Shown: one piece after another, positions 758-34,739 of the stretch
Numbering within the stretch: the stretch's first letter is position 1
Layout of the letters: every line of letters begins with the position of its first letter
Origin: Akkermansiaceae bacterium
Lineage (GTDB): Bacteria > Verrucomicrobiota > Verrucomicrobiia > Verrucomicrobiales > Akkermansiaceae
Direction of reading: 5' to 3'
Length of the DNA stretch: 34,739 nt
Assembly: GCA_903934285.1 (NCBI GenBank)
Contig: CAIZNN010000110.1
Coordinates: 1 to 34,739 of the forward strand
Program-made: the position numbers and the translations under genes
Notes under the pieces: model-generated
What the model was told of the DNA's origin: nothing
What the model saw: the letters and a program-made list of their open reading frames with translations, nothing else
Database searches by the model: none

Positions 758-2164
758 TCACCTCGGGCCATCGTCGAGGCGCAGCGGCGCGAGGTGGGTG
801 TCGCGTTGCAGGAAGCGCATGCCGGCGAGCCAGAATCCGCCGGCCACCACGAACATCACGCCGACCACCACGAAGGCGGTGGTCATGCTGTAGCGGTCAC
901 TGATGATGCCGATAATGACCGGCGAGATGACATCGCCGAAGGCGTGGATGACGAAGATGTTGAGTGCAAAGGCAGTGGCGCGGACCGACGGATGGGTGAC
1001 GTTGGCAAGGATGGTGTTGGTTGGGCCGGTGTTGAAAAACAGGCAGAAGCAGGCCAGAAACAGCCACAGCCAAATCCAGTTGAATCCCGCGGTGACGGTG
1101 AGCAGCATGAACGGAAAGCCCGCCACCATCGCGATGCCCGACACCAGGAAATAGGACCCGCTGCAGCGTGGGCGCAGTCGGTCGCCCACAATCCCCCCCA
1201 GCAACGTCGCCGAGAGCCCCGCCACGATGGTGATGACGCCGAAGATCATCGTCGCCGCCTCCGGGGCGCCGGGTTTCATGCTCAGAAAATAGGGCATCCA
1301 AAACGCGATACCGCCGATGGCAAAGGTCATCGCCGTCATGCCCAGCGTGCAGAAAACGTAGGACGGGGTGCGCAGCAAAATGGCGTAATCGCGCCAGCCG
1401 GGTTTGCGCGACACCACGCCATGCGCCAAATCCGCCTGGCCGCGCGCCGGATCGGGCATGCGGAAACTGCGCAGGCCTAACAAAACCCCCGGCACCACCA
1501 CGAGCAAAAACGCCCAGCGCCAACTCTCGGCCGGCGCGCCGAGCACGCGCTGGCCCCAGGCGCCGATGCCGGAGCGTGCCACGGCGTCGCCGAGCACATA
1601 GCCCAGCGCGCTGCCCACGGGGATGGCCATGTAGAACCAGGCCAACACCTGGCCGCGGACCTTTACCGGATAGAGATCGGCGATCACGGTGGGTGCCACC
1701 GGCCCGTAGGCCGCCTCGCCGATGCCAACAAAACACCGCGTCGTCAACAACATGAAGAAGCCGGTGGCCAGACCCGAACCGCCGCTGGCCACACTCCACA
1801 GCATCACCCCAACACCGATGAGCATCCAGCGCGAATGCCGCTCGGCGAGTTTGCCGAAAACCGGCGCGCCTATCATGTACACCACCATGAACGCCATCGA
1901 TAACACGCCCACCAACGCGTTTTCCGGCTTGAAACCCAGGTGGCTCTGACACCAGCCGAGCAAGGCGTTGAGCGTCGCGTCGCCGCCGGTGCCGTCCTTG
2001 CCGAAGAAGGTCTCCTTGACCTGCGGCACGACCGCCGCCAACACCTGGCGGTCGATGTAGTTGAATAGGTTGATGAGCAGCAGCAGCAGCAACGCCGAGC
2101 GCGCGCCGGGAAACGACGCGGCGCGGCCGGCGGCCACCGCGGATGATGTTAGATCGGGTTTCAT
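758..2164 (-). CDS. Spinster-like major facilitator superfamily transporter
   Basis: 468 residues, a normal MFS length, with about 12 hydrophobic segments. After a polar N-terminus of ~24 residues, the first helix carries NLFNYIDRQVLAAVVPQVK, and helices 4 to 5 carry GIGEAAYGPVAPTVIADLYP. These phrases are typical of the Spinster (Spns) branch of MFS, known for transport of sphingolipid-like or other lipophilic molecules; the bacterial substrates are largely unknown. A ~40-residue insert after helix 1 (about residues 50-80) forms an extracytoplasmic loop with a WCQ motif. Its ATG overlaps the TGA of the YihY gene by 4 nt (ATGA), which implies translational coupling. It contains a rare TTA leucine codon inside a TTGTTAG heptamer at 1477-1483. 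The MFS call is secure; the substrate cannot be read from the sequence. Confidence 0.88.
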   Translation of the reverse strand: MKPDLTSSAVAAGRAASFPGARSALLLLLLINLFNYIDRQVLAAVVPQVKETFFGKDGTGGDATLNALLGWCQSHLGFKPENALVGVLSMAFMVVYMIGAPVFGKLAERHSRWMLIGVGVMLWSVASGGSGLATGFFMLLTTRCFVGIGEAAYGPVAPTVIADLYPVKVRGQVLAWFYMAIPVGSALGYVLGDAVARSGIGAWGQRVLGAPAESWRWAFLLVVVPGVLLGLRSFRMPDPARGQADLAHGVVSRKPGWRDYAILLRTPSYVFCTLGMTAMTFAIGGIAFWMPYFLSMKPGAPEAATMIFGVITIVAGLSATLLGGIVGDRLRPRCSGSYFLVSGIAMVAGFPFMLLTVTAGFNWIWLWLFLACFCLFFNTGPTNTILANVTHPSVRATAFALNIFVIHAFGDVISPVIIGIISDRYSMTTAFVVVGVMFVVAGGFWLAGMRFLQRDTHLAPLRLDDGPR

Positions 2165-3063: not shown

Positions 3064-3080
3064 GCCACAGCGTATAAGAG

Positions 3081-4206: not shown

Positions 4207-5283
4207 ATGAATCGATTGCTGTATCAACTGTTTTTAGGCGTGATGGTGATGTCGATGTTGCACGCGCAGGAGGCGGGGCCGACGGCGGAATTCAAGCTGC
4301 GGGTCAACCCATGGATGGTGTCGGTGGACACGGCCAAGCGCAAGGCCGCCTACCGGGCGTGGCTGCAACTCGGGCCCGAGTGGTTGCCCGAATACCGCAA
4401 GGCGCTGGCCGCCGCCGCCAACTATCACGCGACGAAACTCAATGAATTGGCCGGGCCGCGGGTGGCCGCCAATCCCTACGCCGCCCATCAGGAGGTGGCC
4501 AGGCAACTCGATGAGGAGCGGCCGCGGGTGATGGCATTGATCAAGACTGATTGGCACAAGGATCCGGCCAAAATCCAGATGCTGCGCGCGGAAGTGGCCA
4601 AAGTGGAGCAACTTTGGGCCCACGCCAACCGTCTCGCCGCCGCCGATACCAGGCGCATCGATGCGACCCTCAACGCCAGCGTCGGCGGCATGATGGAAGT
4701 GGCGCGCGAATTGGAGCGTTTTGACTCAGCCGCGGAAACCATCGCGATGGATGAGCCGACCCTCAAGAGCCACCTGCTCAAAGATCAGGTCAAGGCCGGC
4801 ATCATGCTGCAGCACCGCGCGCGCTTCGAACTTACCCGCAACCAAGCCACCGAGCTCGCTGCCGTCGAAAAGGCCAACGCCTCACCCGGCCAGTGGGCCA
4901 CGGCCCCAATCAAAAATTTCACCACCCGGCTCAATCGTGAGCGCGCCATCATGGGCCTCAAGCCGCTGCGGTTGGAAGAACACCTCGCCACGGCCGCCCG
5001 CGGCCATAGCGAAGACATGGTGCGGCTCAATTTCTTCGACCATACCTCGCCGGTGCCGGGCAAGAGCAGCCCGGCAGAGCGCGCCCGCTTGGCTGGCTTC
5101 ACCGGCCCCGGCACCGGGGAAAACATCTATTACGCCACCAAGGCCACCTTCGACTCCGCCTATCAAGCTTGGTTCGGCTCGGACGGCCACCGGTTCAACA
5201 TGTTTGGCGGCGAATGGAATGTCGCCGGCGTCGGCGTCGTCGGGACCCACTGGACGTTGATGCCCGGCCAGACCGCAGGCTGA
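4207..5283 (+). CDS. Secreted CAP (SCP/PR-1) domain protein, copy 1
   Basis: 358 residues from the ATG at 4207, chosen because it begins a good signal peptide (MNRLLYQLFLGVMVMSMLHAQ) and matches the start of the paralogue downstream. Residues about 22-225 are helical and charged, with no family I recognise. Residues about 235-355 form a CAP domain: LNRERAIMGLKPL, ATAARGHSEDM, FFDHTSPVPGK, GTGENIYY and WFGSDGHRFNMF. The two histidines (GHSEDM and DGHR) and the acidic residues around them line the CAP cavity in known structures. CAP proteins are secreted, and bacterial members have poorly defined roles. It is followed after 92 bp by a paralogue of the same length. Confidence is high for the domain and low for any function. 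Confidence 0.85.
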   Translation: MNRLLYQLFLGVMVMSMLHAQEAGPTAEFKLRVNPWMVSVDTAKRKAAYRAWLQLGPEWLPEYRKALAAAANYHATKLNELAGPRVAANPYAAHQEVARQLDEERPRVMALIKTDWHKDPAKIQMLRAEVAKVEQLWAHANRLAAADTRRIDATLNASVGGMMEVARELERFDSAAETIAMDEPTLKSHLLKDQVKAGIMLQHRARFELTRNQATELAAVEKANASPGQWATAPIKNFTTRLNRERAIMGLKPLRLEEHLATAARGHSEDMVRLNFFDHTSPVPGKSSPAERARLAGFTGPGTGENIYYATKATFDSAYQAWFGSDGHRFNMFGGEWNVAGVGVVGTHWTLMPGQTAG

Positions 5284-5375
5284 GCGCGCCCCCAGCCGCG
5301 GGAAGCTTCCCGGCATTTTCGCTTGTGCCGCGGCAGGCAGCGGACGTATGCTGCGCCTGTTCCCAGCTTACGTTT

Positions 5376-6452
5376 ATGAATCGCTGCGCATTGCAACTAA
5401 CCTTGGGCTTGCTGGTCATGTCGCCACTGCTGGCGCAAGACAGTGGGCCGTCGACAGAATTCAAACAACGGGCCAGCCAGTGGATGGTGTCAACCGCTGG
5501 GGCGAAGCGCAAGGCCGCCTACCGGTCGTGGCTCCAACTCGGCCCGGAAGCACTGCCCGCCTACCGCCAGGCGCTCGCCAGCGCCGCGAGCTATCACTCG
5601 ACGCATCTTGATCAACTGGTCCGTGGCCAAGCGGCAACTCCCAATCCCTACGCCGCTCATCAGGAGCAGGCCAAACAACTCGACGAGGAACGGGTGCGGG
5701 TGATGGCGTTGCTCAAGACCGATTGGAAAAAAGACCCGGCCAAAATCGCCATGTTGCGCGACGAAATGGTGCAACTAACAAAACTCTCGAACCGGGTCAA
5801 CCACCTCGCCGCCGCCGATACCAAGCGCTTCGATCTGGCACTCGACGCGCTGGTGGGCGGCATGATGGAAGTGACGCGCGAATTGGAGCGCTTTGACAGC
5901 GCCGCGGAAACCGCCGCGATGGATGATGCCGAGCTCAAGGCGCACCTGCTGCAAGCGCAGGTGGAGGGTTGCCTGCTGCCCGCACAACAGGGCCGCTTCG
6001 AACTCACCCGCAAACACAGCGCCGCCCTCGCCGCAGCCGAAACGGCCAACGCCGCTCTCGACCACTGGGCCACCGCCGCCATGAAAAATTTTGCCACTCT
6101 CCTCAACTCGCAGCGCTGCGTCATGGGACTCACCCCGTTGCTGCTCGAAGAAAAACTAGCCGCCGCCACGCGCGGCCACAGTGAGGACATGGCGCGACTC
6201 GGGTTCTTCGCCCATAATTCGCCGGTGCCGGGCAAGACCACCCCATGGGACCGCGCCCGCCTCGCCGGCTTCCAGGGCAGTGGCACCGGTGAAAACATCT
6301 ACACCGGCTCGCCAAACTTCGAGGCCGCCTATCAGGCCTGGTTCGGCTCGGACGGCCACCGCTTCATCATGTTTGGCGATGGCTGCAATGTCCTCGGCGT
6401 CGGCATTGCCGGGGTCATCTGGACGATGATGACCGGCAGGACCAGCGGCTGA
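5376..6452 (+). CDS. Secreted CAP (SCP/PR-1) domain protein, copy 2
   Basis: 358 residues, the same length as the gene upstream and alignable from start to stop with only compensating one-residue gaps; identity is roughly 60% by eye. The frame is open further upstream, but the ATG at 5376 gives the signal peptide MNRCALQLTLGLLVMSPLLAQ and matches copy 1, so the longer start is rejected. The CAP motifs are LNSQRCVMGLTPL, AATRGHSEDM, FFAHNSPVPGK, GTGENIYT and WFGSDGHRFIMF. The Asp of copy 1's FFDH is Ala here (FFAH), so the putative metal or ligand cavity differs. The pair is a tandem duplication that has diverged for some time. Its function is unknown. Confidence 0.85.
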   Translation: MNRCALQLTLGLLVMSPLLAQDSGPSTEFKQRASQWMVSTAGAKRKAAYRSWLQLGPEALPAYRQALASAASYHSTHLDQLVRGQAATPNPYAAHQEQAKQLDEERVRVMALLKTDWKKDPAKIAMLRDEMVQLTKLSNRVNHLAAADTKRFDLALDALVGGMMEVTRELERFDSAAETAAMDDAELKAHLLQAQVEGCLLPAQQGRFELTRKHSAALAAAETANAALDHWATAAMKNFATLLNSQRCVMGLTPLLLEEKLAAATRGHSEDMARLGFFAHNSPVPGKTTPWDRARLAGFQGSGTGENIYTGSPNFEAAYQAWFGSDGHRFIMFGDGCNVLGVGIAGVIWTMMTGRTSG

Positions 6453-6718: not shown

Positions 6719-6761
6719 CGTTTCATCCGTCTGCGATCTACAGACCATTGAATGCTAACAA

Positions 6762-8603: not shown

Positions 8604-9559
8604 GCGCCGCGTCGCAATACCAAATGGCAGATCCAGGTGCTGAGCCCCAGTGCGGCCAGCGGCAACAGGCCTGAACGCAGGTTGTCGCCTATCCACCACC
8701 ATGCCAACGGGCCCGCCACCACTTTCACATGGGTCAGGTGGAAAACTTTGAACGCAATGACCCACCCGCTGTGCATGCCCATGCACAGCCACAGCCGCCC
8801 GGTGCGCAGGCGCGCACCGGCCAGAATCCAGCCGATGGTGAACAAGGTGAGGAAATCCGCCACCACAAACCGCGGATCGGTGAAATGCAGCAGAATGCCG
8901 CCAAGGTGACGGAAGCCCGCCAGCGCGGCTAACGGCTCCGCCATGCCGTCGCCCGGCGGTGCCAGAAAATGTAAAAACGCAAACACCAACGAACTGCCGA
9001 GCGCCGCCGCCAACGGCTGGGCGACCCGGAGCCAGAGCCCGAGCAAAAGCCCGCGGAATAGCCATTCCTCCACCACCGACACCACCACCGCCGGCAACAC
9101 CGCCTGGCTCAGCAACCGCGTGGCGCCAGGCACCACCGGCGCGGCCGTGAACGCCCCCAACCCCGTCAGCACCACCCCCAACCCGCATACCGCCCCGCAG
9201 GCAATCACCGCACCTAACAACCCTTGCGCCGCGCCGCTCTGCCACGTCCCCGGCCCCGGCGCGCCGCCCGGCCACACCCGTTCGCCGGGATGACGCAAGG
9301 CCCTGAGTCGGCGGAACATCACCGGCAGCAAAATCAGCGCCGCCAGCAACAGGCTGCGGTTAAAAAACCGCCCGAATGTGGCCCGCCGGCAGGCCATGCC
9401 CAACCACCCGGCCACCCCCGTGTACCCCTGCGCTTGAGCCAGCTCCGCAAACTCCCGGCCCCCCTGATAGAGCCACGGCGCAATCCCCGCCGCCAGCACC
9501 AACGACGCCACCACCCACAGCACCACCGCCCCTGCCTCGGATCGTACAAATCGTGTCAC
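8576..9559 (-). CDS. CPBP (Abi/CAAX-type) intramembrane glutamic protease
   Basis: 327 residues with about eight hydrophobic helices. The catalytic signatures of the CPBP family (PF02517) are visible: the EEWLFRG motif (glutamate pair followed by Arg) near the middle, FAFLHF on the next helix, and HSGWVIAFKVFHLTH near residue 270. In the family these residues form the intramembrane glutamate protease centre. In bacteria the proteins process or modify membrane proteins or peptides and are often linked to bacteriocin self-immunity, but here the substrate is unknown. The gene is convergent with btuB, and the last 28 bp of the two frames overlap. It contains a TTG-TTA pair inside a TTGTTAG heptamer at 9214-9220. 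Confidence 0.85.
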   Translation of the reverse strand: MTRFVRSEAGAVVLWVVASLVLAAGIAPWLYQGGREFAELAQAQGYTGVAGWLGMACRRATFGRFFNRSLLLAALILLPVMFRRLRALRHPGERVWPGGAPGPGTWQSGAAQGLLGAVIACGAVCGLGVVLTGLGAFTAAPVVPGATRLLSQAVLPAVVVSVVEEWLFRGLLLGLWLRVAQPLAAALGSSLVFAFLHFLAPPGDGMAEPLAALAGFRHLGGILLHFTDPRFVVADFLTLFTIGWILAGARLRTGRLWLCMGMHSGWVIAFKVFHLTHVKVVAGPLAWWWIGDNLRSGLLPLAALGLSTWICHLVLRRGAYQSKVTPA

Positions 9560-11153: not shown

Positions 11154-11434
11154 AATGCCCTGTATGCACTGAACCCGACCTGGTGATGACCGACCGCCAA
11201 GGCGTGGAAATTGACTATTGCCCCAAATGCCGCGGAGTGTGGCTGGACCGGGGTGAGCTCGACAAAATCATCGAGCGTGCGGCATCCATCCCGGCCCCGC
11301 AGGCGGCGCCGGGCTACCGCGGCGAGCCCCAAGGATACTCCAAACACGACGATCACCACGACGAACATGGCGGCTTCGACAAACATGGCCAGCCGCGTCG
11401 CAAAAAATCGTGGCTGGCGGAAATGTTTGACTAA
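11150..11434 (+). CDS. TFIIB-type zinc-ribbon protein
   Basis: 94 residues. The first ~45 residues are the zf-TFIIB domain (PF13453): MKCPVC, then YCPKCRGVWLDRGELDKII, with the four zinc cysteines in two CxxC pairs and the characteristic WLDRGEL. The rest is a hydrophilic tail rich in His, Asp and Lys (SKHDDHHDEHGGFDKH) ending RRKKSWLAEMFD, which recurs at the C-terminus of this family. The molecular role of the family is not known. Translation is probably coupled to the small ORF upstream through the ATGA overlap. Its stop codon lies inside a CTAACAA heptamer (11431-11437). Confidence 0.9.
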   Translation: MKCPVCTEPDLVMTDRQGVEIDYCPKCRGVWLDRGELDKIIERAASIPAPQAAPGYRGEPQGYSKHDDHHDEHGGFDKHGQPRRKKSWLAEMFD

Positions 11435-11477
11435 CAACCGCCGCCGCCATCGCTCTTCACCTGCATTGCACGGGGGG

Positions 11478-14573: not shown

Positions 14574-17171
14574 CTATCTTACAGGTGTTTTCCACGCCAC
14601 GTAATCAACGCCAATCAGGGAGTTCCTGGAATCAGGGTGCTTCCCCTGGTAGAGGATTTTCAGGAGGTGCTTTCCTTGGCTTAGCATCGCCGGCTTGAGC
14701 TTGAAGGCGACGGGAGGTTGCAGCCTTGGCTGGAAGAGGTCAATCGCCTCGCTCACAGGGCCATCGTCGAGCTGGAAACTGAAGATGCCATAGTCCTCGG
14801 CTTTGGACAGGTGCAGTTCCAGTTCATAGGAACCCGCTTTGTCCACCGGCACTTCCAGAACCAGCTGGTCGCCTGCGGTCAATCCTCCCCACCAGACCAG
14901 TTGGCTGTCGTCGCTCCAGTGGTTGCCGAAGGGCGCCATGTCCTGCGGCTCAACCCGGCCGCGGCTCACGGAGTGGACTTTCAGGCACTCGGCTTCAATC
15001 ACGCCGGGAGCCGTCGCAGGCGCCTCATCCAGGTCGCGGAACAGTTCTAGCAGAGCGGGTTTGTCGCCGCGGATGAACACGGGAATATGCTCGAGCGGCG
15101 CGTCCGCGGTGATCGTCTGACCGCCGGGAATTTTCTTGCCGGTCCAGGCATCAGTCCACTCGGCTCCAGCCGGAAGATAGACCTCGCGGCTGCGCATCTC
15201 AAACTTGGTGATTGGAACAACCAGCAGATCCGGCCCGAACATATATTCATCTTCCACGGTCGCGGCCTTGGGGTCGTTCATGAAGTCGAAGAACAAGGGG
15301 CGCATCGGCGGCAATCCGCTTTTGGAGGCCAGTTTCATTTGTTCCATTACATACGGGCGCAGGCGTTCCCGGAGCAGCAGGGATGCCCGAATATGGCCAT
15401 AAGTTTTCTTGCCGCCGAGATTCCACGGTTCATTGTTAGGCCGGCAGGCATGGGTGCGGAAGACGGGCAGGAAGACCCCATACTGATACCACCGCGTCAT
15501 CAATTCCTGAAAGTGGGGACTTTTATTATCCGGGCTTACAAAGCCGGTATCGCAACTCCACCAGGGAATTCCGCTCATCATCACGTTGAGGCCCACCTTG
15601 ATGTATCTTTCCAGATCCTCAAAGGAACATTGGATATCGTGAGGCGCGGGGCAAGCCCCGTAGCGCTGGCTGCCAGCCCAGGCATTGCGGCAAATGCTCA
15701 CCACCTCTTTCTCTCCGGCGGCCAGCAAGCCCTCATAGATGTTTTTCTGATGGGCTATCGGGAACCACGCATGGCATTCCTTGGCCGGACCGATGTGAAA
15801 GAGCACCTGGTCGTAATCCGCGATCTCGTGCAGATCATCGCAGGGGTCGAGCCAGAACGTGCGGATGCCCAGCTCCACATAATTCTGTTGCCATTTGCTC
15901 CAGAGGTATTTGGCGGCTTCCGGGTTGGTCGGGTCGTATTGATACTTCGGGCCCCAGAATTCGACGGTGTCCTTCTTCCCGCCTATGGAACCGGTGAACA
16001 GTCCGTGCTCCTTCATGTAGGCGAAATTCTCACTCTTCTCGTCCACCAGGGTCCAGGGTGAGATCATGATCCGGTAGCCCATCTCGTCCATTGCCTTGAC
16101 CATGGCCTTGGGGTCGGGCCAGCACTTGGGATCGAGCCTCCAGTTGCCCGTGACATCCCAGTGCAGGAAGTCGATGACGAGCACCGACAAGGGCAGGTTG
16201 CGCCGTTTGAATTCACGCGCCACGTCCAGGAACTGCTGCTGGGTCTCATAGCGAAGTTTGCACTGCCAGAATCCGGAGGCCCAGTAAGGAAACTTTGGCG
16301 CGTGCCCGGTGGCATCCGCGTAATTCTCCATGATGTCGGCGTAGCAATCGCCTGCGGTGATGAAATAGTCGAGTTGTTTGCAGCCATTGGAAATCCAGCG
16401 GGTTTTGTTATTGCCGAATTCAACCTTGCCCAGTGACGGATTGTTCCAGAGGAACCCGTAGCCTTCACTGGAAACAACAAAAGGCACGACGGCCTTCATG
16501 TGTCGCTGAAAGAGGTCGATCATGCAGCCTTTCAGGTTCACCTTGTTTGGAGCGTTAACCGCATTCTCACCCATGCCGTAGAGGCGTTCTCCCTCACGCG
16601 CCGCAAACTGCAGTTCGGAAGAAAACAGACCGTCGCCCGCCGGCTTGAACGATCGCGCGCCGGGATTGTTAGCGTCAGCCGCATCATCGCACTCGCCCAG
16701 GAGCGGAATCTGTCTGCCGCCGGCATGCCTGAAGAACTGCATATGACCGCTGCGGGTGGGAGTGTCCTGAATGCGAACGGAGATCTTCCCGTTGCGCAGC
16801 GTGGCTTCCTTTGGGGAGATCTCTATCTTCCCTTTCCTCTCCAGTGGAATATCCAAGGCCCAGTCCGAGGTCTGACCTCCGCCGGCGGGAGTGACCCGCA
16901 CGCGGAGGCTGTCCCGTCCCCACGCCTGGATGACGACCGTCTGCCCGCCATCCTTATAAACAAGTCCGTCCCCGTCCCTCCTGGCCCGGTCTGCCAAAGC
17001 GGGCGAAGCAGGCATGTCGAGCGTTGCCAGTTTGCGGATCAACGGCCGGCCGTCTTTGTCGACCGGAGCTTTGTCATCCGCCGCATCGGCGGCGGATGCG
17101 GCGCCGCAATTTGTCAACATCGCCAGAGCAATAAGCAGTCCTGAAAAGCGCGGCGGAATGTTGTTATACAT
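14574..17171 (-). CDS. Secreted GH31 family glycoside hydrolase (alpha-xylosidase/glucosidase type)
   Basis: 865 residues from the ATG at 17171, which gives a signal peptide (MYNNIPPRFSGLLIALAML) with a possible lipobox LTNC; an ATG 11 codons upstream is possible. Residues about 65-270 are the N-terminal beta-sandwich, with the GH31 phrase ERLYGMGENA. About 290-620 is the catalytic barrel with KFPYWASGFWQCKLRY, VIDFLHWD, TFWLDPCDD (nucleophile candidate Asp442), ICRNAWAGSQRYG and IPWWSCDTGF. The acid/base position normally sits in W-x-G-D; here the aligned segment is APHD (Asp512), an unusual variant. About 730-865 is a carbohydrate-binding-like module starting VIEAECLKVHSVSRG. It probably cleaves alpha-linked xylose, glucose or galactose from exogenous glycans in the periplasm or at the surface. 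Confidence 0.88.
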   Translation of the reverse strand: MYNNIPPRFSGLLIALAMLTNCGAASAADAADDKAPVDKDGRPLIRKLATLDMPASPALADRARRDGDGLVYKDGGQTVVIQAWGRDSLRVRVTPAGGGQTSDWALDIPLERKGKIEISPKEATLRNGKISVRIQDTPTRSGHMQFFRHAGGRQIPLLGECDDAADANNPGARSFKPAGDGLFSSELQFAAREGERLYGMGENAVNAPNKVNLKGCMIDLFQRHMKAVVPFVVSSEGYGFLWNNPSLGKVEFGNNKTRWISNGCKQLDYFITAGDCYADIMENYADATGHAPKFPYWASGFWQCKLRYETQQQFLDVAREFKRRNLPLSVLVIDFLHWDVTGNWRLDPKCWPDPKAMVKAMDEMGYRIMISPWTLVDEKSENFAYMKEHGLFTGSIGGKKDTVEFWGPKYQYDPTNPEAAKYLWSKWQQNYVELGIRTFWLDPCDDLHEIADYDQVLFHIGPAKECHAWFPIAHQKNIYEGLLAAGEKEVVSICRNAWAGSQRYGACPAPHDIQCSFEDLERYIKVGLNVMMSGIPWWSCDTGFVSPDNKSPHFQELMTRWYQYGVFLPVFRTHACRPNNEPWNLGGKKTYGHIRASLLLRERLRPYVMEQMKLASKSGLPPMRPLFFDFMNDPKAATVEDEYMFGPDLLVVPITKFEMRSREVYLPAGAEWTDAWTGKKIPGGQTITADAPLEHIPVFIRGDKPALLELFRDLDEAPATAPGVIEAECLKVHSVSRGRVEPQDMAPFGNHWSDDSQLVWWGGLTAGDQLVLEVPVDKAGSYELELHLSKAEDYGIFSFQLDDGPVSEAIDLFQPRLQPPVAFKLKPAMLSQGKHLLKILYQGKHPDSRNSLIGVDYVAWKTPVR

Positions 17172-17223
17172 GGAGTTGCTCGTTTGTCGTAATAACGATC
17201 TCAAGAGTGGGGAGCTCTTCGGC

Positions 17224-22465: not shown

Positions 22466-23719
22466 TCAGTGGTTTGCTCCATTACGGAGACTGATGATTT
22501 CAGTTTCTCGGGCCTCTAGCAGGCAAAAGAGCCCGAGTTTCGTGAAGTAGCGGTTGGGCCAACGCTGGTGATCTCCTCCACGGCCGCGACCTTTCAGGCC
22601 GCGCCGTTTTCGCAAAATGGATCGCAATCTCATGCGAATCCACCCGTCGATTCCACTCAGTTCGCTGGCCATAACGTGTTTGAAGTAGCCGAACCAGCCG
22701 GGCAGTGTCCGGTTGAGGTCCTCCACGATCGCTTTCATGCTTCGTCCGCCGGCCCGGTGGGTCCGCGGTTTGATGGCTTCGCGCAATTTGCGCAGACTCT
22801 TGGGCCGGACCAATCGCATCATCCGTCCCCCGCGGCTTCTCTTGAACCGATAGCCGAGGAAGTCAAAATGACTGTCGGCCAGGTTCATGTCCACCGTGCG
22901 GGTTTTATCGGGATGCAACGTCAATCCGGCCCCGGCCATCCATTCCCGGAGCTTTTCCAGCGCAGCTTCGGCTTCTTCCTGACTGCGGCATAACACGACC
23001 ATATCGTCGGCATACCGCACCATTTCAAAGCCGACTCCGGCCATCAGCCAGTCCAGCGGATCGAGGTAGATGTTGGCTAACAATGGACTTATCACCCCAC
23101 CCTGCGGCGTGCCTTGCGGCTCGTCTTCGGGCATGTCTTCCACGGTTTCAACCCATTCGGTGCCTTCCATCACGCCTTGTTTGAGGAACCCCTCGATAAG
23201 CCCCAGTACCCGCCCGTCGGCGACGTGCTCGCGCACCAACGCCATGAGCCGATCATGGGGAATCGCATCGAAGTAGCCCTTGATGTCCACGTCCACGATG
23301 TGCGTCATCCCTGCTTGTAACAGTTCTTCCACACGCCGCAGCGCGTCTTTACAACCGCGTCCGGGGCGGAATCCGTAGCTGTGTTTGGCAAAACGGTTTT
23401 CAAAAATGGGTTCAATGACCATTCTCACCGCTGCCTGCACCACGCGGTCGGTGACCGTGGGTATCCCCAGGGGTCGCTTTTCCACGCTGCCAGGTTTGTC
23501 TATCCACACCCGTTTGACCGGCTTGGGTTGATAGGTACCCTTGCTGAGATGCTCATTTACGGCGAGCAGCCGACTTTGGCTGTCTTGCTCAAAGCGCCCT
23601 ATCGTGATGCCGTCAACGCCACAGCTCCCGGCGTTTCTACGCACCTTTTCCCACGCCAGTTGAAGGGTTCTTTCTGTGCTGACCTTGTCGATCAGGCTGA
23701 ACCACTTGTTTCCTTTCAA
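22466..23719 (-). CDS. ltrA: Group II intron reverse transcriptase/maturase
   Basis: 417 residues from a TTG at 23719, with AGAGG just upstream. RT blocks in order: KPVKRVWIDKPGSVEKRPLG (block 1-2), IFENRFAKHSYGFRPGRGC (3), HIVDVDIKGYFDAIPHDRLM (4), GTPQGGVISPLLANIYLDPL (5), FEMVRYADDMVVLCRS with the YADD catalytic pair (6), and GLTLHPDKTR (7). The X/maturase domain (about 300-400) includes LPGWFGYFKHV and RRGLKGRGRGGDHQRWPN. There is no HNH endonuclease domain, as usual for IIC introns. The frame continues upstream through one in-frame TAA into a further 40 codons that belong to the family's N-terminus (see 23726-23848), so the protein may start short or be inactivated. A TTGTTAG heptamer (TTG-TTA codons in PLLAN) lies at 23077-23083. 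Confidence 0.9.
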   Translation of the reverse strand: MKGNKWFSLIDKVSTERTLQLAWEKVRRNAGSCGVDGITIGRFEQDSQSRLLAVNEHLSKGTYQPKPVKRVWIDKPGSVEKRPLGIPTVTDRVVQAAVRMVIEPIFENRFAKHSYGFRPGRGCKDALRRVEELLQAGMTHIVDVDIKGYFDAIPHDRLMALVREHVADGRVLGLIEGFLKQGVMEGTEWVETVEDMPEDEPQGTPQGGVISPLLANIYLDPLDWLMAGVGFEMVRYADDMVVLCRSQEEAEAALEKLREWMAGAGLTLHPDKTRTVDMNLADSHFDFLGYRFKRSRGGRMMRLVRPKSLRKLREAIKPRTHRAGGRSMKAIVEDLNRTLPGWFGYFKHVMASELSGIDGWIRMRLRSILRKRRGLKGRGRGGDHQRWPNRYFTKLGLFCLLEARETEIISLRNGANH

Positions 23720-24160: not shown

Positions 24161-27100
24161 TCACGGCATGGTCACCTTGAGGCGGCCCGCGGCCCTGCCG
24201 TTTTGGGCGTAGGCCAGCGGAATGCGGATCTCCATATCATCCGGGGCGGGGCCGTTTTCGTTGACCAGCACCGAGGCGATGTCAGTCCAGTGGACCAGGT
24301 CGGCGCTCCACTGGCCGACGTGGGTGGTGTCAGCTTCCGCGGCGTCGTTGCGCCGGTAGCTCAACACCAGATAGCCGCCGCGAAGCGACGGCTTGGGCAG
24401 GGAGGCGGCGCTGGCAGCACGCGGGTCGCCGCCGATGACATACTCTATCAGGTTCGGGATGCCGTCGCCATCCGGATCGCCGCCGCTGGACTTGTCGCTG
24501 AGACCGGCGAAGGTATCAGCCCAGACGCCATAGCTCGCCGGTTCCACGGCGAGGAGGCCGGACGCCTGGCGGAAGCTCCATTTGTCAGGGCCGCGGAAAC
24601 ACGTCCACACCCCGGTCCCAGTCATGCTGAAATCGGTTAGCTTGAAGGTGGTGCCGTAGGTTGCGGCGAGGGAATTGGCATTGACGAGCAGCCACGAGTT
24701 GCCGGCGGTGGTGCTGGCGGCGGCGAGATCGATGGTGAGTGAGCCATCCAGCACGAGGGTGCCGCTGCCGCCGATGGTATTGACGACGCCATTGGCCAGG
24801 GGCGCGAAGTTCAGGCAACCTGCGGAGCCAAGGGCGAGGGTGGCCCCGGCGCCCACGGTGATGGCGGATTGGCCGCCAAGGGAACCGCTCACGGCGAGGG
24901 TGCCGCCGGTGACGGTGGTGCTGCCGGTATAGGTGTTCGATCCGGTCAATTGCAGGCGCGCCGAACCGGATTTGGTGAGGGTGGCGCTGCCGGTGATCGG
25001 GTTGCCGCCGATGCTGTAATCCCTGAGGTTGTTAGCCGCCAGGATGCCACCCGGCGCAACATTGGCGGCCGTGATGGTCACTGCCACCGGGCCGCTTCCC
25101 GCCGCGGTGTCGTCAAACTTCACCGTGTCCCCTTCCGAGTAAAGGTTCAGCGGCGGCCCCGTGGCGAGCCAGTTGGCAGCGGTGCTGTCCCAAGTGCCGT
25201 TGACCGCTCCGCTCCAAACACCGGACTGCGATGATTGGGCCGTGCCCACATAGCCTGTGCCACCGGCAGTCTGCTCGATTTTGAAATACGCCGGCGCGGC
25301 GGAGGCGGAGGCATACGGAATGTTGGCGGCGACCCGCTTGCCGTTGATGGAGAGCGTGTATCCGGTTGGCGCACATTCGTAGGCGAAGGCATAGGTGGTG
25401 CCCGCGACATAACTGCGGGCCGTGACAATGGCAGCCCCCTGATAGTACTTGATCTTGCCGTCGGTATCGAAAAACGCCCCGGCCAGCACCGTGTTGTTAG
25501 AATCAGCGTCCAGCCGCAGCGGGGTGAATTTCACCGTGGTTTGGTCCGCGCGGGCGGAAAAGGCGAAGCGGTTGTTAGTGAGGCCGACCGCTTTGCGCAG
25601 CCGCAGGCTGTGGGTGGCATCGGTCTTGAGTACCAAGCAATTGGGCGGGATGGGGTTGCCGATTTTGCGGATGTAGGTGGCCGGCCAGGTGCCCGGCGAA
25701 CTGAGCACTTCACCAAAGCCAGGGTCATAGGCCCAGCCCTCGGCCACGACGTCATCCCACATTTCCGGGCGTTGGACCAACTCCTCCAACGGCATGTCCC
25801 AGGTCATCAGGGAAAGTTCGGGCAGTTGTGGGTTCTGGTATTGGACATCCTCATACCAGAACCAGGTCTTGCCGTTGACGCTAACCAAAGTGCCGTCGGC
25901 CACCTGCGCCTCGCCGTTCTTATACACCCACTCGCGGGAGAGCCAGCCCATGCGCGTCCAGTGGTTGAGGTCGGTGGACTTGTAGAGCGAGCAGGAGGTC
26001 GGCGTCCAGTTGATGCTGGGATCCGTCTCATGAATGATGCAATAGTAGGTATGGCCCACCTTGTGAACCTCGGTTCCGCCGACCGCCGTGCCCGGCCCGC
26101 CATACGGGATGACCGGGTTGCCCGGGTACTTGACCAGGCTTGTCAGACTCGGTCCGTAGGCGCGGCCGACCTGCCAACCGCCCGATCCCGAGCCCGCCTC
26201 ATACATGACCTGCCACTGGTTGGCTTCATACCAGATGCATATGTTGCCGGTGCGGAACCCGTCCCAAGACCCGGAGATACCCAGTGACAGGATCAGGTTC
26301 GAGTTGTTCAGCCACGTCCATGAGCCGGGCAGTCCGGTAGTGGAATAGAACAGGTCGAAACCGAACTGACCGTTGCGGCCCACCGGCATGTAGTACCCTG
26401 CGGGTTCGCCCGCCGCGGTGGCACTGGTCAGGTGATAGGTGTAGGGGCAGCCGCGATGGTAAGGACTATTGCCGAGGCACACGCCCTGGTCGGTCCAGTT
26501 GATGCCGTCGGGGCTGGTGGCGTAGCGGATGGCGCCGCTGTTCCAATAGTCTCCGGGGCTCTCCGGGGCCGGGCTGCCGTGATACCACGATTTGAAGATG
26601 CCGTCCTCCAACATCATCGTCTGCTCGACGCCCCAGCGCGTCTTGACCACGCCATCCTTGTTAGCCCCCTCGCGGCGCGGGCCGCTGAACACCGGCGCCT
26701 CCGTCAAGCCACTAACGGCGCGGTAGTAACCGGTGGCCAGCGCGCTATCGGCAATTCCGGGTTTGGTGGCAATGGCGCTGACTAACAGTTTGGAGGGGGC
26801 TGTCACTGCCACCGTGGCGCTGCCGGCATTCGCCGCACCGTGGGGCGAGGCGGGGCCGGGCATGGTGCCATCGGTGGTAAACCAAATGGTGGTGCCGGGT
26901 TCGCCGGTGAGGGTCACGGTCTGGCTGCCCAAGCAGCTGCCTGGCGGCGGGTTGAAGGCGGGTTTGGCGAGCGTGATGAGGTAGGCGGCCGTGGCGACGG
27001 CGCTATCCGCCTTGCCGCTTTTCACCGCGAATGCCTTGAGGGTCTGGCTGGCTGGCACATTGACTGCGGCGGTGCCGGAACCCGCCGCGCCGGAGGCGGA

Positions 27101-27850
27101 GGTGTTGTTAGGTGGCGTGCCATTGGTGGTGTAATAAACCGTCGATCCGGTCTCCGCGGCGATGGTCACACTTTGGGTCCCGACGTAAGTGCCCGCCGGC
27201 GGGGTGAACATCGGGGCGGCCATGCCACTCAAGTCGCGCAGTTGGATCGCGTTGACTTGGCTGAGCACGTTGCCTGTGAGGGTGAACGCCTGGGTGGTGG
27301 TGGTGGCCGTGAACGTGCCGATGGAGAATTGGCCGGTGGTGCCCGTACCCGTTCCTGTGTTGTAGTTCAAGTTGATTGTATTACCGCCGCTGCTGGTGAG
27401 GTTTTGATTGCGATTGTATTGCGCCCGCGAATCATCAACCCACACCTGCACTTGATACTGGTGGCCGGCGGTGAGGTTGTTGAGGGTGAGGGTGAGCGGG
27501 GCGGTGGTGTTATTGTATCTGCTGCCATACAGGACTTGTTTGTAGGCGGCGGAAAGCGCCGAGGCTCCGGCATAATCCGGATAGGTGTTCGGGCTCGCAG
27601 GATCGGTGCTGGTCCAGGTGATCCCCCCGGCGACCTCGGCGGTAAAGCTGACGCCGTTGAGGGTCACGGGCGGGCTGCTAGAATAACAATAGGCAAACAC
27701 GCCCGCACCGTTGGTGGAGACATCACCATCGCCGGCGATGGTGGCCGGGACCGACCACGTCACGGGGGCCGCCCGCACAGTGGCGGTGAGGGCCAGGGCG
27801 GCGAGGCAGATCGCCGGGCGGTTCAGGAATGTTGTCACGAATGTTCTCAT
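24161..27850 (-). CDS. Large secreted modular protein: chitobiase-type repeats, five-bladed propeller (GH43/32-like), PATR
   Basis: 1229 residues from the ATG at 27850, with signal peptide MRTFVTTFLNRPAICLAALA ending near TVRAAP; the frame is open 65 codons upstream but without coding character. Domains: an N-terminal beta-sandwich (about 29-207, containing YQVQVWVDDSRAQYNRNQN); two CHB_HEX_C-type repeats (211-292 with VYYTTNGTPP, 294-377 with IWFTTDGTMP); and a five-bladed propeller (about 382-725) with IRYATSPDGINWTDQG, VHKVGHTYYCIIHET and LYKSTDLNHWTRMGW. These are followed by a lectin-like region, an autotransporter-associated PATR strand (GSNTYTGSTTVTGGTLAVSG) and a C-terminal DPDGDGIPNLIEYVIGGDP unit with a terminal beta domain. 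It is probably a surface or extracellular glycan-binding hydrolase; catalytic carboxylates could not be fixed by eye. Five CTAACAA/TTGTTAG heptamers occur in it. Confidence 0.75.
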   Translation of the reverse strand: MRTFVTTFLNRPAICLAALALTATVRAAPVTWSVPATIAGDGDVSTNGAGVFAYCYSSSPPVTLNGVSFTAEVAGGITWTSTDPASPNTYPDYAGASALSAAYKQVLYGSRYNNTTAPLTLTLNNLTAGHQYQVQVWVDDSRAQYNRNQNLTSSGGNTINLNYNTGTGTGTTGQFSIGTFTATTTTQAFTLTGNVLSQVNAIQLRDLSGMAAPMFTPPAGTYVGTQSVTIAAETGSTVYYTTNGTPPNNTSASGAAGSGTAAVNVPASQTLKAFAVKSGKADSAVATAAYLITLAKPAFNPPPGSCLGSQTVTLTGEPGTTIWFTTDGTMPGPASPHGAANAGSATVAVTAPSKLLVSAIATKPGIADSALATGYYRAVSGLTEAPVFSGPRREGANKDGVVKTRWGVEQTMMLEDGIFKSWYHGSPAPESPGDYWNSGAIRYATSPDGINWTDQGVCLGNSPYHRGCPYTYHLTSATAAGEPAGYYMPVGRNGQFGFDLFYSTTGLPGSWTWLNNSNLILSLGISGSWDGFRTGNICIWYEANQWQVMYEAGSGSGGWQVGRAYGPSLTSLVKYPGNPVIPYGGPGTAVGGTEVHKVGHTYYCIIHETDPSINWTPTSCSLYKSTDLNHWTRMGWLSREWVYKNGEAQVADGTLVSVNGKTWFWYEDVQYQNPQLPELSLMTWDMPLEELVQRPEMWDDVVAEGWAYDPGFGEVLSSPGTWPATYIRKIGNPIPPNCLVLKTDATHSLRLRKAVGLTNNRFAFSARADQTTVKFTPLRLDADSNNTVLAGAFFDTDGKIKYYQGAAIVTARSYVAGTTYAFAYECAPTGYTLSINGKRVAANIPYASASAAPAYFKIEQTAGGTGYVGTAQSSQSGVWSGAVNGTWDSTAANWLATGPPLNLYSEGDTVKFDDTAAGSGPVAVTITAANVAPGGILAANNLRDYSIGGNPITGSATLTKSGSARLQLTGSNTYTGSTTVTGGTLAVSGSLGGQSAITVGAGATLALGSAGCLNFAPLANGVVNTIGGSGTLVLDGSLTIDLAAASTTAGNSWLLVNANSLAATYGTTFKLTDFSMTGTGVWTCFRGPDKWSFRQASGLLAVEPASYGVWADTFAGLSDKSSGGDPDGDGIPNLIEYVIGGDPRAASAASLPKPSLRGGYLVLSYRRNDAAEADTTHVGQWSADLVHWTDIASVLVNENGPAPDDMEIRIPLAYAQNGRAAGRLKVTMP

Positions 27851-30454: not shown

Positions 30455-30634
30455 CTGCGCAGCGGAAAATTCTTCATGAATTCTGCGATAGTTCCCTGCC
30501 CCGCGCCCAAATCCGTCGTTCGCCGTTTGGGACTTGGTCACCAACCCGGCTCGCCCGATTGGCCAACCTTTTGGACTTTGCTTCACCCGCCACCGCCTTG
30601 CTCCCGCCCGCCGATCCCCCGCCTTAACTCTCTC

Positions 30635-33600
30635 ATGCGCGGCCAACCCATAACCAGCCTTGGAATCATCCTCGTGTTATGCGCCACGGCGCTGGCCCGC
30701 GGGGGAGTTCTTCCCAATCCGACCATCACGGCGGCCACCGCCAGTTCGTCGCCAACCAACGCCGTGGCCGGCATTTTCGACAACTTGGCGGAAGCGAGCG
30801 AATACCGCACCAACGCCGCGGGCAACACCACGTTCATCGAGTTTGACTTCGGCACCCAAGTCACCATCGATGGATTCCTCAATGTGACCCGCAGCAGCAC
30901 CAGCAGCGTGGTGACCGGGTCGCGGCTGATCTTCGACAATGACGGCAGCGCCGGGTTCTCGGCCGCCACCGACAGCGTGGTCGAGTTCAACGCGGCCAAT
31001 ACGGGATCGACCGGCCAAGGCTACCTCAACCGCTTTGCGCCGGTAACCGCGCGCCGGGTCCGCTGGGAAGTCACCGCCAACGCTGGCAGCAGCCAAAGTT
31101 GCGGCGCCATGGAGATGCGTTTCCTGGGGGCAGCCGCAGGCACCACGCCCGTGGCCGGCGTCGGCGTCACCGCCGGTTCGCCTGCGCTCGACGCCTATCA
31201 CGCGCTGGCCAACGCCAGCAACGGGCTGGCCGGACGCACCCTCCCAACCTACCCCTACTCCGACATCCTGCCCGCCGTCGGCTACGCCAGCAACGCAGGC
31301 GCCACGGCCACCTTCGTCGATTTCGACCTCGGCCAAACCAAACTGGTCGCGGGGTTTGATTTTTTCGACCAACTCGGCACCGACCAGCGGGTCAATTCCT
31401 TCACCCTGAGCTTCAGCAACGATGCGGGTTTTGTCGCTCCCGTTGCCACCCGCTCGTACTCGAACAGCGGGTTTTCCCTCTCCGATGCCTTTGCCGCCAT
31501 CCCCGCCCGCTATATCCGCTACCAAGTGACCTCCTGCGCCGCTGCCAATCCCGGCCTGTCCGAATTGGTGTTCTATGAGACGGCGGGCTCCAGCCTCGCC
31601 ACGGCGTTTTCGCCCGGCGCCAATCCCAGCCAAAATTGGCTCCACGGCGAGAAAGCCACCCCGCTCGCCAAGGACCTCACCGCCTATCAAACCGCCGCCC
31701 CGCCCGACACCACCGCCCCATGCCAACGTTGGGGCACCGATCCTGCGGCGCAATCCACCGCATTCATCGGCATGGCCCCGCTCGCTGCCGCCTCATTCCT
31801 CTGGGGCGGCACCCCCACCGACTGGGCGGCCGGCGCCCTTTACCACGCCTGGCGCAACGGCCACGCACTGCCCATGGTGTCACGCTTCACCATAATCCAA
31901 TCCGGTTGGTATGACATCGCGGCCGGCTGGCAGGCCCACACCGTGGCGGGTTGTGAGGCCATCGTCTCCATCGTGGCCAACGGCAGCACGGTGTATTCGG
32001 CCAACCTTTCCGGCTTTGCCGGCACCCCGCACGGCACCACTGCGCCGTCGGGTGCCGCTCCCATCATCAACGGCGCGGCCAGCGGCATTCCATTGGCGGC
32101 CGGTGCCACGGTGGATATCGTGACGCTGCCGCTCAGTGCCGTGGGCAACGTCGCCGTGGACGCCCACATCACCGCGGTGGCCGCGCCGGCGGAGACCACC
32201 GCCAGCGTGGTCATCCGCGAGTTCTGCGCCGCCAACCTCAACGGCCTGCGCGATGAAGACGGCGCCGCCTCGGATTGGATCGAGCTCTACAACGGCACCG
32301 GCACTGCCGTCGACCTCACCAATTGGTCACTCACCGACAGGTCCGGCCAACCGCGGATGTGGTTGTTCCCGCCGCGCATCCTGCCCCACGGGCAACGCCT
32401 GGTGGTTTTTGCATCTAACAAAGATTCGGTGAAACGTGCCGCCTACGGTCCCACCAGCCAACTCCACACCAACTTTGCGCTGGCGAAATCCGGCGAGTTT
32501 CTCGGCCTCGCCGATCCGGACGGCGGCTTTGTCAGCTCATTCGCGCCGACGTTTCCCGCCCAATACGACGATATCACCTACGGTTTGGGGGCCAACGGCC
32601 TAACAGGATACCAGCAACCAACCCCCGGTGCGGCCAACGCCGCGGCCTCACCGGAGCCGCTCACCGTGCTTGCTTTCTCCGCGCCCTCCGGCCTCTTCAG
32701 CAGCACTCTGAGCGTCACGATCAGCGGTTACAGCGCGAGCCACACCGTCCGTTATACCACCGATGGCACCGAACCCACTTTGGCCACCGGTCTAACCTAC
32801 ACCGGCACCCCGATCAGGATCGCCGCCAGCACCACCCTGCGCGCCCGCACTTACGCAGCCAGCGTCGCGGGCCCGCTCGCCCAAGCCACCTACAGCAAAC
32901 TCGGCACTGCCAGCCAATACGGCATCACGCCGGCCACCTTCACCTCGGCGCTACCCGTGCTGGTGATCGACGCGCCGGCCGCGCCGCCATCTGACAAGAC
33001 CCCGCTGGTGGCGCGTTTCACTTTGATAGAGCGCAACCCCGCCGATGGCTTGGCCCGCCTCTCCGGCACCCCCGCCCTCGCCACCCGCGGCACGATCAAG
33101 CTGCGCGGCCAGTGGTCATCCAGCTTTCCCAAGCAAGGCTACGCGATCGAATTCTGGGATGGTTCCGATCAGGATGAGGCGCGCCAGGTATGCGGCATGC
33201 CCGCGGAATCGGACTGGACGCTGTACGCCGCCTATCAGACAGATCCGGATTTCATGCGCAACGTCCTGGTGTACGAACTGTTCCGCCGCATGGGCCGCTG
33301 GGCGCCGCGCACCCGTTTCGTCGAGGTCTTCCTCAACACCGGTGCCGCCCAGGTCGACGGCGCCAGTTACTACGGCGTTTATGTCTTGAGAGAGAAAATA
33401 AAAATCGACGCCGACCGGGTGGACATCAGCCAAATGACCGCCGCCGACAGCGCCGGTGAGGCGGTGAGCGGCGGCTACATCATTGCCCACGACAAATACG
33501 GCAACGGCGAGCAAACCCATCCCGAGCTGCTCACCGGCAATCGCGACGGCTTTCCGCACTGGCTACCTAACGGCGCGTTCGTCTATAAAACCCCCTCGGT

Positions 33601-34739
33601 AACCGACATCACCGCCGCGCAGAAAGCCTATATCTCCGATTACGTGCTGCAGACCGACGCCGCCATCGCCCCGCCCACTTTCACCCATCCGGTTACCGGG
33701 CGGCATTACACCGACTACATCGCGCGCGATTCATTCATCGATCACCACATGCTCATGGCTTTCGCCAAAAACCTCGATGGCCTTCGCATCAGCACCTACT
33801 TCACCAAAGACCGCGGCGGCAAATTGAAAATGTCCGTCCCGTGGGATAACGATCTGTCCCAGTGCCCTGCGGATGCCGGCAGCGCGGGCGCCGACCCTAA
33901 CAACTGGAACAGCGACATGGACGCATCCGCAAATTATTCCGACTATTTCACAAGGGATGCTCACATCGCCGAGGGCTGGTTCCACTATCTCCATCAAGAT
34001 CCCGGCTACATGCAGGAATGGGTGGACCGCTTCGACCGCTGGCGCAACAGCGGCGTGCTCGATCCAACACAAATCAGCACGTTCCTCAACCAAGCCGCCG
34101 CCGAGTTGACCGCGGCGGACAACAACGGCACCGCCGCCGCCAACACCCCCATCGCCCGCAATTTCGGCCGCTGGCCGCGCGCCACCAACGGCATCTCCAC
34201 CCAGGGCACCAATGCCGCCGCGGTCATTTTCGGCAGTGCCACCACCAGCGAGATCAGCCGCCACAAGACCTGGCTCCAGCAACGCATCGCCTTCATGGAC
34301 ACCTGGGTCTTGCGCAAACCGGTGCCGTCGCGCGCCGCGGGAGTGGTCTCACCCGGTGCCACGCTCAGTCTCACGTCGCCCGATCTAACCGGCGCCGCGC
34401 GCTTCTATTACACTCTTGATGGCACCGATCCCCGTGCCGAGACCGGCGGCATTGCCCCGACCGCCCTGCCATGGAGCGGGTCGCTTGCGCTGGGTTCAAG
34501 CACCCTGCTCAAGGCCCGCCTCTATCAGCCGTCGCCGGTCAACAAGCACACCGCCTGGAGCGCCCCGCTGGAAGCCCGTTATATTGTGGGGGCGGTAGCG
34601 GCCGCGGCGGCCAACCTCGTGGTCAGCGAGTTGATGTATCACCCCGCCGACCCCTCGGCCCGGGAAATCGCCGCCGGCATCACCGATGCCGAGGCCTTCG
34701 AGTACATCGAACTGCGCAACACCTCCGCCACTCCCGTCA
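30635..34739 (+). CDS. Giant CotH-kinase-like surface protein with lamin-tail and chitobiase repeats (partial)
   Basis: The frame is open from the ATG at 30635 to the window edge (1368 codons, no stop). Signal peptide MRGQPITSLGIILVLCATALA. Domains: two discoidin-like beta units (about 25-170 with TFIEFDFGTQVTIDGFLNVT, and 175-310 with ATFVDFDLGQTKLVAGFDFF); a variable region to ~520. Next a lamin-tail domain (about 525-670: VIREFCAANLNGLRDEDGAA, DWIELYNGTGTAVDLTNWSL), a chitobiase-type repeat with YTTDGTEPTLATG (about 680-755) and a CotH domain (about 770-1230). The CotH part includes RGTIKLRGQWSSSFPKQGYA, YYGVYVLREKIKIDADRVDI and LKMSVPWDNDLSQ, whose Asp residues match the metal-binding PWD of CotH kinases. 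A second chitobiase repeat (YYTLDGTDPRAETGG) and a second lamin tail (ELMYHPADPS) follow. It is probably an exported, surface-attached protein; substrate unknown. Confidence 0.88.
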   Translation, partial: MRGQPITSLGIILVLCATALARGGVLPNPTITAATASSSPTNAVAGIFDNLAEASEYRTNAAGNTTFIEFDFGTQVTIDGFLNVTRSSTSSVVTGSRLIFDNDGSAGFSAATDSVVEFNAANTGSTGQGYLNRFAPVTARRVRWEVTANAGSSQSCGAMEMRFLGAAAGTTPVAGVGVTAGSPALDAYHALANASNGLAGRTLPTYPYSDILPAVGYASNAGATATFVDFDLGQTKLVAGFDFFDQLGTDQRVNSFTLSFSNDAGFVAPVATRSYSNSGFSLSDAFAAIPARYIRYQVTSCAAANPGLSELVFYETAGSSLATAFSPGANPSQNWLHGEKATPLAKDLTAYQTAAPPDTTAPCQRWGTDPAAQSTAFIGMAPLAAASFLWGGTPTDWAAGALYHAWRNGHALPMVSRFTIIQSGWYDIAAGWQAHTVAGCEAIVSIVANGSTVYSANLSGFAGTPHGTTAPSGAAPIINGAASGIPLAAGATVDIVTLPLSAVGNVAVDAHITAVAAPAETTASVVIREFCAANLNGLRDEDGAASDWIELYNGTGTAVDLTNWSLTDRSGQPRMWLFPPRILPHGQRLVVFASNKDSVKRAAYGPTSQLHTNFALAKSGEFLGLADPDGGFVSSFAPTFPAQYDDITYGLGANGLTGYQQPTPGAANAAASPEPLTVLAFSAPSGLFSSTLSVTISGYSASHTVRYTTDGTEPTLATGLTYTGTPIRIAASTTLRARTYAASVAGPLAQATYSKLGTASQYGITPATFTSALPVLVIDAPAAPPSDKTPLVARFTLIERNPADGLARLSGTPALATRGTIKLRGQWSSSFPKQGYAIEFWDGSDQDEARQVCGMPAESDWTLYAAYQTDPDFMRNVLVYELFRRMGRWAPRTRFVEVFLNTGAAQVDGASYYGVYVLREKIKIDADRVDISQMTAADSAGEAVSGGYIIAHDKYGNGEQTHPELLTGNRDGFPHWLPNGAFVYKTPSVTDITAAQKAYISDYVLQTDAAIAPPTFTHPVTGRHYTDYIARDSFIDHHMLMAFAKNLDGLRISTYFTKDRGGKLKMSVPWDNDLSQCPADAGSAGADPNNWNSDMDASANYSDYFTRDAHIAEGWFHYLHQDPGYMQEWVDRFDRWRNSGVLDPTQISTFLNQAAAELTAADNNGTAAANTPIARNFGRWPRATNGISTQGTNAAAVIFGSATTSEISRHKTWLQQRIAFMDTWVLRKPVPSRAAGVVSPGATLSLTSPDLTGAARFYYTLDGTDPRAETGGIAPTALPWSGSLALGSSTLLKARLYQPSPVNKHTAWSAPLEARYIVGAVAAAAANLVVSELMYHPADPSAREIAAGITDAEAFEYIELRNTSATPV

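Follow-up and report, generated by a model that had tools for sequence, protein, structure and literature searches.

CTAACAA in an Akkermansiaceae genome is the commonest form of a lineage-limited DNA word with the core CTAAC

The heptamer CTAACAA occurs 16 times in a 34,739-nucleotide stretch of DNA from an Akkermansiaceae bacterium (hereafter the window), which is contig 110 of a source genome (G000) of 4,795,702 bases in 282 contigs. A sequence-only reading had located these copies, and all 16 of its coordinates were found to be exact. Three + strand copies lie in genes of the - strand whose coding strand reads TTG-TTA-G, as had been described: 1477..1483 in an MFS gene (758-2164), 9214..9220 in a CPBP (Rce1-like) gene (8576-9559) and 23077..23083 in a group II intron reverse transcriptase gene (22466-23719). 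The + copy at 5775..5781, in a CAP-domain gene (5169-6452, +), is read as CTA-ACA-A. Ten of the 16 copies are read as N-CT-AAC-AA, among them the - strand copies at 15433..15439 and 16666..16672 in a GH31 gene (14574-17204, -), both also present in the homologue of the relative G125, and at 18069..18075 in an HrpB-type helicase gene (17438-20059, -), which is retained in G006 and G125 and replaced by CCAACAA in G132. The same reading applies to the - copy at 25029..25035 in a large gene with PATR and CHB_HEX_C_1 domains (24161-28045, -) and to the + copy at 32415..32421 in a CotH/LTD-domain gene (30476-34738, +) that reaches the window end; these two genes contain, respectively, four further - copies (25494..25500, 25572..25578, 26658..26664 and 27105..27111) and one further + copy (33897..33903). 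The remaining two copies, both on the + strand, had been placed at gene borders. The copy at 6755..6761 does directly precede the start codon (ATG at 6762) of a TonB-dependent receptor gene. The TAA within the copy at 11431..11437 is the stop of a possible short + strand open reading frame (11150-11434) in only one of two gene calls, and this copy falls outside genes in the other.

The excess of the heptamer in the window is real. In 100 dinucleotide-preserving shuffles the mean count was 0.91 and the maximum 4, and under an order-2 Markov model CTAACAA was the top-scoring 7-mer of the window (16 vs 0.78). Under a maximal-order model it falls outside the top ten, because the excess is already carried by CTAAC and TAACA. 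CTAAC itself was observed 42 times, against a maximal-order estimate of 21.6. The sequence-only reading had taken CTAAC to be near expectation and the trailing AA to be what is selected, and both statements turned out to be wrong: the core is CTAAC, in marked excess in the window and in coding sequence (below), and the letters that trail it differ by lineage.

Across the whole source genome, CTAACAA was counted 1,484 times (736 forward and 748 reverse), at a density of 309/Mb, compared with 449 copies (237 and 212) of the reversed word used as a control. Null models were applied to a sample of 469 kb of the 4.8 Mb, comprising the window and 31 further stretches, of which 371 kb is coding. Genes were called with a purpose-written codon-score script in place of a standard gene finder, and synonymous codons were shuffled within genes. 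In coding sequence, 141 copies of CTAACAA were observed where the synonymous shuffle gives 8.4, and 484 of CTAAC where it gives 124; the signal overrides codon preference, as had been proposed. The excess extends over the sense classes CTA-ACA-A (19 observed, 0.5 expected) and N-CT-AAC-AA (44 and 3.7) and the antisense classes TTG-TTA-G (71 and 3.4) and N-TT-GTT-AG (7 and 0.8). A shuffle that also preserves codon-junction dinucleotides yielded 13.8 +/- 4.0 copies, leaving a ten-fold excess, and the 97 kb of intergenic DNA contains 19 copies against 3.8 expected (order-2 Markov). In the relative G006, which has the most copies per Mb among the aligned relatives, the four classes gave 16/0.8, 32/4.1, 40/1.8 and 4/0.6 (observed/expected). 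CTAACAA is therefore a DNA-level word, not a codon-pair effect, in G000 and G006, its count in the sampled genome lying far above both Markov and codon nulls and its excess extending to every readable frame and to intergenic DNA, contrary to the outcomes that would have refuted the sequence-only reading.

The word itself is short. When the words of the G000 sample were ranked against the synonymous shuffle, the first six 6-mers, the first eleven 7-mers and all 25 of the 25 listed 8-mers were found to contain or overlap CTAAC. The core CTAAC is preferentially preceded by Y and followed by A and then A or C, roughly YCTAACAA. Among one-mismatch forms, CTAACAN is 4-8 times in excess, CTAACGA and CTAACCA about 3 times, and CTATCAA, CTAGCAA and CAAACAA about 2 times, with no excess or a deficit in the others. 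Of the forms taken by this short, non-palindromic word with the core CTAAC, which accumulates genome-wide, CTAACAA is the most frequent. Of the 258 TTA codons in the sample, 51% lie within TG_TTA_G, and 172 of 378 CTA codons precede ACN. In 80 named loci from relatives, where CTAACAA is scarce (28 in 1.36 Mb vs 116 of the reversed word), only 14 of 596 TTA codons have that context, and the difference indicates that the word adds rare codons. A comparison of TTA codons in near loci initially used 9 of 11 loci and excluded the two having most copies; with all 11, 3 of 69 TTA codons fall in the word. Three other accounts of the excess were rejected or found no support. TTA-codon context alone is rejected, since the CTA-ACN and NCT-AAC forms are also enriched. 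There is no support for one mutational hotspot (for instance C-to-T change at CCAAC), as CCAACAA is not depleted (100 vs 79.5) and lost sites carry several alleles. No strong partner was found within 30 bp of CTAACAA that would make it part of a bipartite or longer motif.

The distribution of the word among Verrucomicrobiota is patchy. The order was surveyed over 171 genomes of at least 95% completeness, with a CTAACAA count at or above that of the reversed word as the criterion (109 genomes were tabulated, and the other 62 were judged by eye to lie below the control). Forty-five of the 171 are at or above the control, a figure that should not be read as a tally of established carriers because the control has no correction for base composition; they include 19 of the 32 genomes under the genus label of the window, and no g18 genome is among them. 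In the rest of the class the control is reached by 4 of 226 genomes, with a median ratio of 0.18 (rows recounted), and in a sample of the phylum YCTAACR exceeds the control only in G000 and G252 (2 of 288, read by eye). Samples of only 22-40 kb were used for nine genomes (G043, G103, G134, G159, G149, G119, G252, G126 and G117), and G140 (2.3 kb) was dropped. The motif-poor G126 and G117 samples have 0 copies vs 0.4 expected each, and CTAAC is absent from the top words listed for G009. The CTAACAA excess is largely confined to a subset of lineages within a single order.

Where the word is abundant, the lineages share the core CTAAC and have lineage-specific flanks. CTAACAA ranks top in G010 (24 vs 3.0), TCTAACA and CTAACAG are the top words in G103, and the dialect of G119 is TCTAACAG. 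Among the 171 surveyed genomes, those with an excess have ratios of CTAACAA to CTAACAG of 0.43-0.70 in g20 (four genomes) and 3.3-4.6 in g8 (six genomes), so that the former prefer CTAACAG and the latter CTAACAA. In G252, which belongs to another family of the class, GCCTAACGA was counted 1,802 times in 2.9 Mb vs 70 copies of its reversed word. In 33 kb of coding sequence of this genome it occurs 23 times vs 0.8 expected, in four strand/frame classes, and in the 40 kb sampled its orientation is + in 13 copies and - in 16. The earlier observation was correct yet understated: the heptamer belongs to a genome-wide, lineage-limited word with dialects.

G252 also contains a second word, AAGATCGACAW. 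Seventy exact copies of AAGATCGACA were found in 40 kb (L283 and L284), about 1 per 570 bp and on both strands. They occupy five strand/frame classes, with 61 in coding sequence where 5-10 are expected; one-mismatch forms number only 9. AAGATCGACAW is a candidate for a genome-wide signal of its own in G252.

What could maintain such a word? Under the explanation that we favour, a sequence-specific DNA-handling step would favour the CTAAC-core word and lead to its accumulation genome-wide. That step would be the biased uptake or recombination of word-bearing DNA in natural transformation; molecular drive would build the word up as a self-recognition signal resembling the DNA uptake sequence (DUS) of Neisseriaceae or the uptake signal sequence (USS) of Pasteurellaceae, and a conserved receptor would read the core as the flanks drift into dialects. 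Maintenance by biased uptake or recombination is a tentative reading, quite possibly rather than probably correct. The wider proposal of a DUS family in Verrucomicrobiota, with dialects on a CTAAC core, independent of those of Neisseriaceae and Pasteurellaceae and represented in G252 by the two words GCCTAACGA and AAGATCGACAW, is possible and somewhat doubtful. We infer an uptake role from the pattern of copies and do not claim membership in the DUS class.

Several features of known uptake sequences are found here: a non-palindromic word, a genome-wide excess on both strands, and lineage dialects on an invariant core. The excess in all readable classes and in intergenic DNA, the added rare codons, the graded one-mismatch forms and the random spacing of copies also count in favour of this explanation. 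In the accessible part of PMC3630211, the Neisseriaceae DUS is likewise non-palindromic, present in hundreds to thousands of copies, built of a fixed core with lineage flanks and absent from some members; the Neisseria dialects share the invariant core CTG, and AT-DUS reaches about 1,900 copies per genome. The Verrucomicrobial word differs in its core (CTAAC), in its phylum, in its length in G000 (7-8 bp vs 10-12) and in lacking close inverted pairs. The USS resembles it in being spread genome-wide and in having one-mismatch forms whose excess is graded, the available portion of PMC1939737 describing a gradual excess of near-matches of uptake sequences by molecular drive. The USS is unrelated in sequence, and the gene-terminus bias described for Pasteurellaceae uptake sequences in the sections available of PMC2346458 was not found here. 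A length of 9-12 bp with hundreds to thousands of exact copies, as in known uptake sequences, is seen for GCCTAACGA in G252.

A considerable number of observations weigh against the uptake explanation. Clear information in the G000 word is limited to 7-8 bp, shorter than known DUS and USS. All 38 genomes searched have ComEC, whether rich or poor in the motif, so its presence does not discriminate; it permits the pattern and does not explain it. G252 has a second, commoner word, so an uptake role need be assigned to no more than one of the pair. In literature whose coverage largely excluded subscription papers, no paper was found that joins Verrucomicrobi, natural transformation and uptake sequences, and neither CTAACAA nor six longer words were found as whole words. 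Close inverted pairs are typical of Neisseria DUS, though not defining, and no neighbours of opposite orientation within 50 bp were found in G000 for either CTAACAA or CTAACA. For 269 CTAACA copies in G000 genes of at least 450 bp, no gene-terminus bias was detected (Kolmogorov-Smirnov p=0.40). Codon-atypical genes are no poorer in the word (437/Mb in the least typical fifth vs 307-409 elsewhere), bare CTAAC is sense-biased in G000 (281/202), and copies are sparser in intergenic than in genic DNA (195 vs 380 per Mb for CTAACAA; 637 vs 733 for CTAACA). In the AT-rich G149 sample the codon test gave little excess (6 vs 3.5); because the reversed-word control keeps base-composition effects, a ratio above 1 with a weak excess is possible in such genomes.

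Comparison of sites between relatives is likewise mostly unfavourable. The favourable exception is G006: over the 36.6 kb aligned between it and G000, motif codons for the same amino acid are unchanged in 19 of 28 cases vs 42 of 119 for those codons at other places (Fisher p=0.0025). Summed over G019, G125 and G132, no excess is seen (13 of 35 vs 134 of 338), and whole-word retention in the four relatives is not above control (15 of 38 for CTAACAA vs 14 of 28 for CCAACAA). Strong per-site conservation is unsupported over the four relatives, the excess being confined to G006. Lost sites carry varied alleles, most often CCAACA (4 of 14 in G006) and also CTATCA, CGAACA and CTAGCA. These small numbers suggest that any per-site force is at most weak, perhaps stronger in the copy-richest lineages.

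Spacing of CTAACAA in G000 is random (coefficient of variation 1.02), with neither paired nor periodic spacing found, and its copies in genes are 63 sense and 78 antisense. Bare CTAAC has 7 neighbours of opposite and 18 of the same orientation within 50 bp, and CTAACA shows a mild local clustering of orientation (188 of 326 neighbours in the same orientation vs 168 +/- 7.7). In G021, G137, G150 and G151 the forward and reverse counts of CTAACAA are strongly unequal, as are those of the reversed control, perhaps reflecting a preferred contig orientation at deposition.

The sequence-only reading had offered a DNA uptake or transfer signal, a recombination site, a chromosome-organising motif, a methylation site or an extreme codon-pair rule as possible roles. 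In our judgement an uptake-like role fits best and a polar recombination role less closely, and the data from G000 exclude a codon-pair rule in that genome. The codon-pair or translational-context account, on which the word would be nothing but a by-product of coding, could draw on the ten N-CT-AAC-AA copies of the window and on G051, from another family of the same order. There, TTG-TTA-G makes up 118 of 147 coding copies (118 vs 7.4 expected) and CTA-ACA-A is not enriched (1 vs 1.2), which also counts against an uptake signal. The four enriched classes in G000 and G006, the intergenic excess and the ten-fold excess left by the junction-preserving shuffle make this account highly improbable overall. 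Codon-pair bias can be dismissed for both G000 and G006, with G051 as a partial exception where it may contribute. In G051, the excess of CTGACA and CTAGCA is weaker and present in each readable class, CTGGCA is in excess too, and xG_TTA_G accounts for 53% of TTA codons, giving a broader CTRRCA-like pattern to which codon context likely contributes. A Chi-like role, in which a RecBCD/AddAB-type nuclease would be switched at CTAAC-type sites, selection for double-strand-break repair would act on them and their lineage-specific flanks would reflect co-evolving recognition, is suggested by the short non-palindromic form (7-8 bp) and the density in G000, both similar to those of E. coli Chi (GCTGGTGG and its analogues; 1,008 copies in 4.64 Mb according to the accessible text of PMC1939737). 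Intergenic CTAACA in G051 leans towards the lagging strand (20 leading, 35 lagging; no significance test). However, CTAACAA is not G-rich, and its orientation in G051 tracks the gene (9 leading and 58 lagging in leading-strand genes, 61 and 14 in lagging-strand genes; 162 of 167 copies tallied), with no clear effect of replication strand inside genes after allowing for gene strand. The G000 contigs are shorter than a firm test of replication polarity requires, and on them GC skew is lower around + copies than around - copies (CTAACA p=0.00015), but control words of similar composition (CCAACA and TCAAC among them) follow GC skew likewise; the trend therefore reflects composition, and no replication-strand polarity is shown. 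We regard a Chi-like role as unlikely.

A word of the HIP1 type (highly iterated palindrome; GCGATCGC in cyanobacteria) would be the target of a methyltransferase, created and retained by mismatch-repair bias or a methyl-dependent function. The available sections of PMC4390886 describe HIPs as over-represented genome-wide, patchy among relatives, substituted by other words in some species and linked to matching methyltransferases. The patchiness and word replacement are comparable to what is seen here, and the spread over all frames is compatible with a repair-driven ratchet. Unlike HIPs, CTAAC and CTAACAA are non-palindromic; lost sites carry several kinds of alternative allele, and two published Verrucomicrobia methylation motifs given in PMC6329791, AGGNNNNNRTTT and ACGAG, are unrelated and come from other species. 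An origin of this kind is credible, if unlikely. A protein-binding or chromosome-organising word with a structural, partition or transcriptional role accords with presence in coding and intergenic DNA at random spacing; the copies do not cluster at gene ends, and hundreds to more than 1,000 sites per Mb exceed most known architectural words, which makes such a role unlikely. Among other known words, the core box of integron attC sites has the consensus RYYYAAC, which GCCTAAC and ATCTAAC fit; attC boxes stand in inverted pairs around a hairpin, whereas CTAACAA and CTAACA have no close inverted pairs.

Several further features of the locus were noted. The HrpB-type helicase has its matches in Verrucomicrobiota, with named Prosthecobacter (83-85% identical) among the closest, and is 82-92% identical to its copies in G006, G132, G125 and G022; the remaining genomes of the window's genus label have versions only about 35-50% identical; judging from these identities, the gene may have moved between families. 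Window positions 17200-17439, between the GH31 and helicase genes, match several places in G125 in pieces 85-90% identical and look like a dispersed repeat; a repeat search found no internal repeat in window positions 17100-17500. In a 236-kb sample of G000, the counts of ACCCAGTG and AGTGCCCG are 57 and 68 (6 and 10 expected, order 3), and the two overlap in ACCCAGTGCCCG, probably forming a dispersed repeat family. A VPDSG-CTERM match encoded in the window lies below the Pfam cut-off, and a PATR protein is also encoded. Positions 11688-14570 encode a 960-aa protein matching the middle domain of hydrazine synthase alpha (PF18582); as far as we know, hydrazine synthesis would not be expected in this organism.

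To our knowledge, sequence-specific self-DNA uptake is documented in two proteobacterial families. If the uptake explanation is true, the CTAAC word would represent a second origin in another phylum, and drive versus selection, as well as change in core versus flank, could be compared between independent cases. Whatever its role, no other word-level signal in the sampled part of the source genome is as strong under the synonymous shuffle, and studies of codon usage or composition in Verrucomicrobiota would need to account for the CTAAC word.

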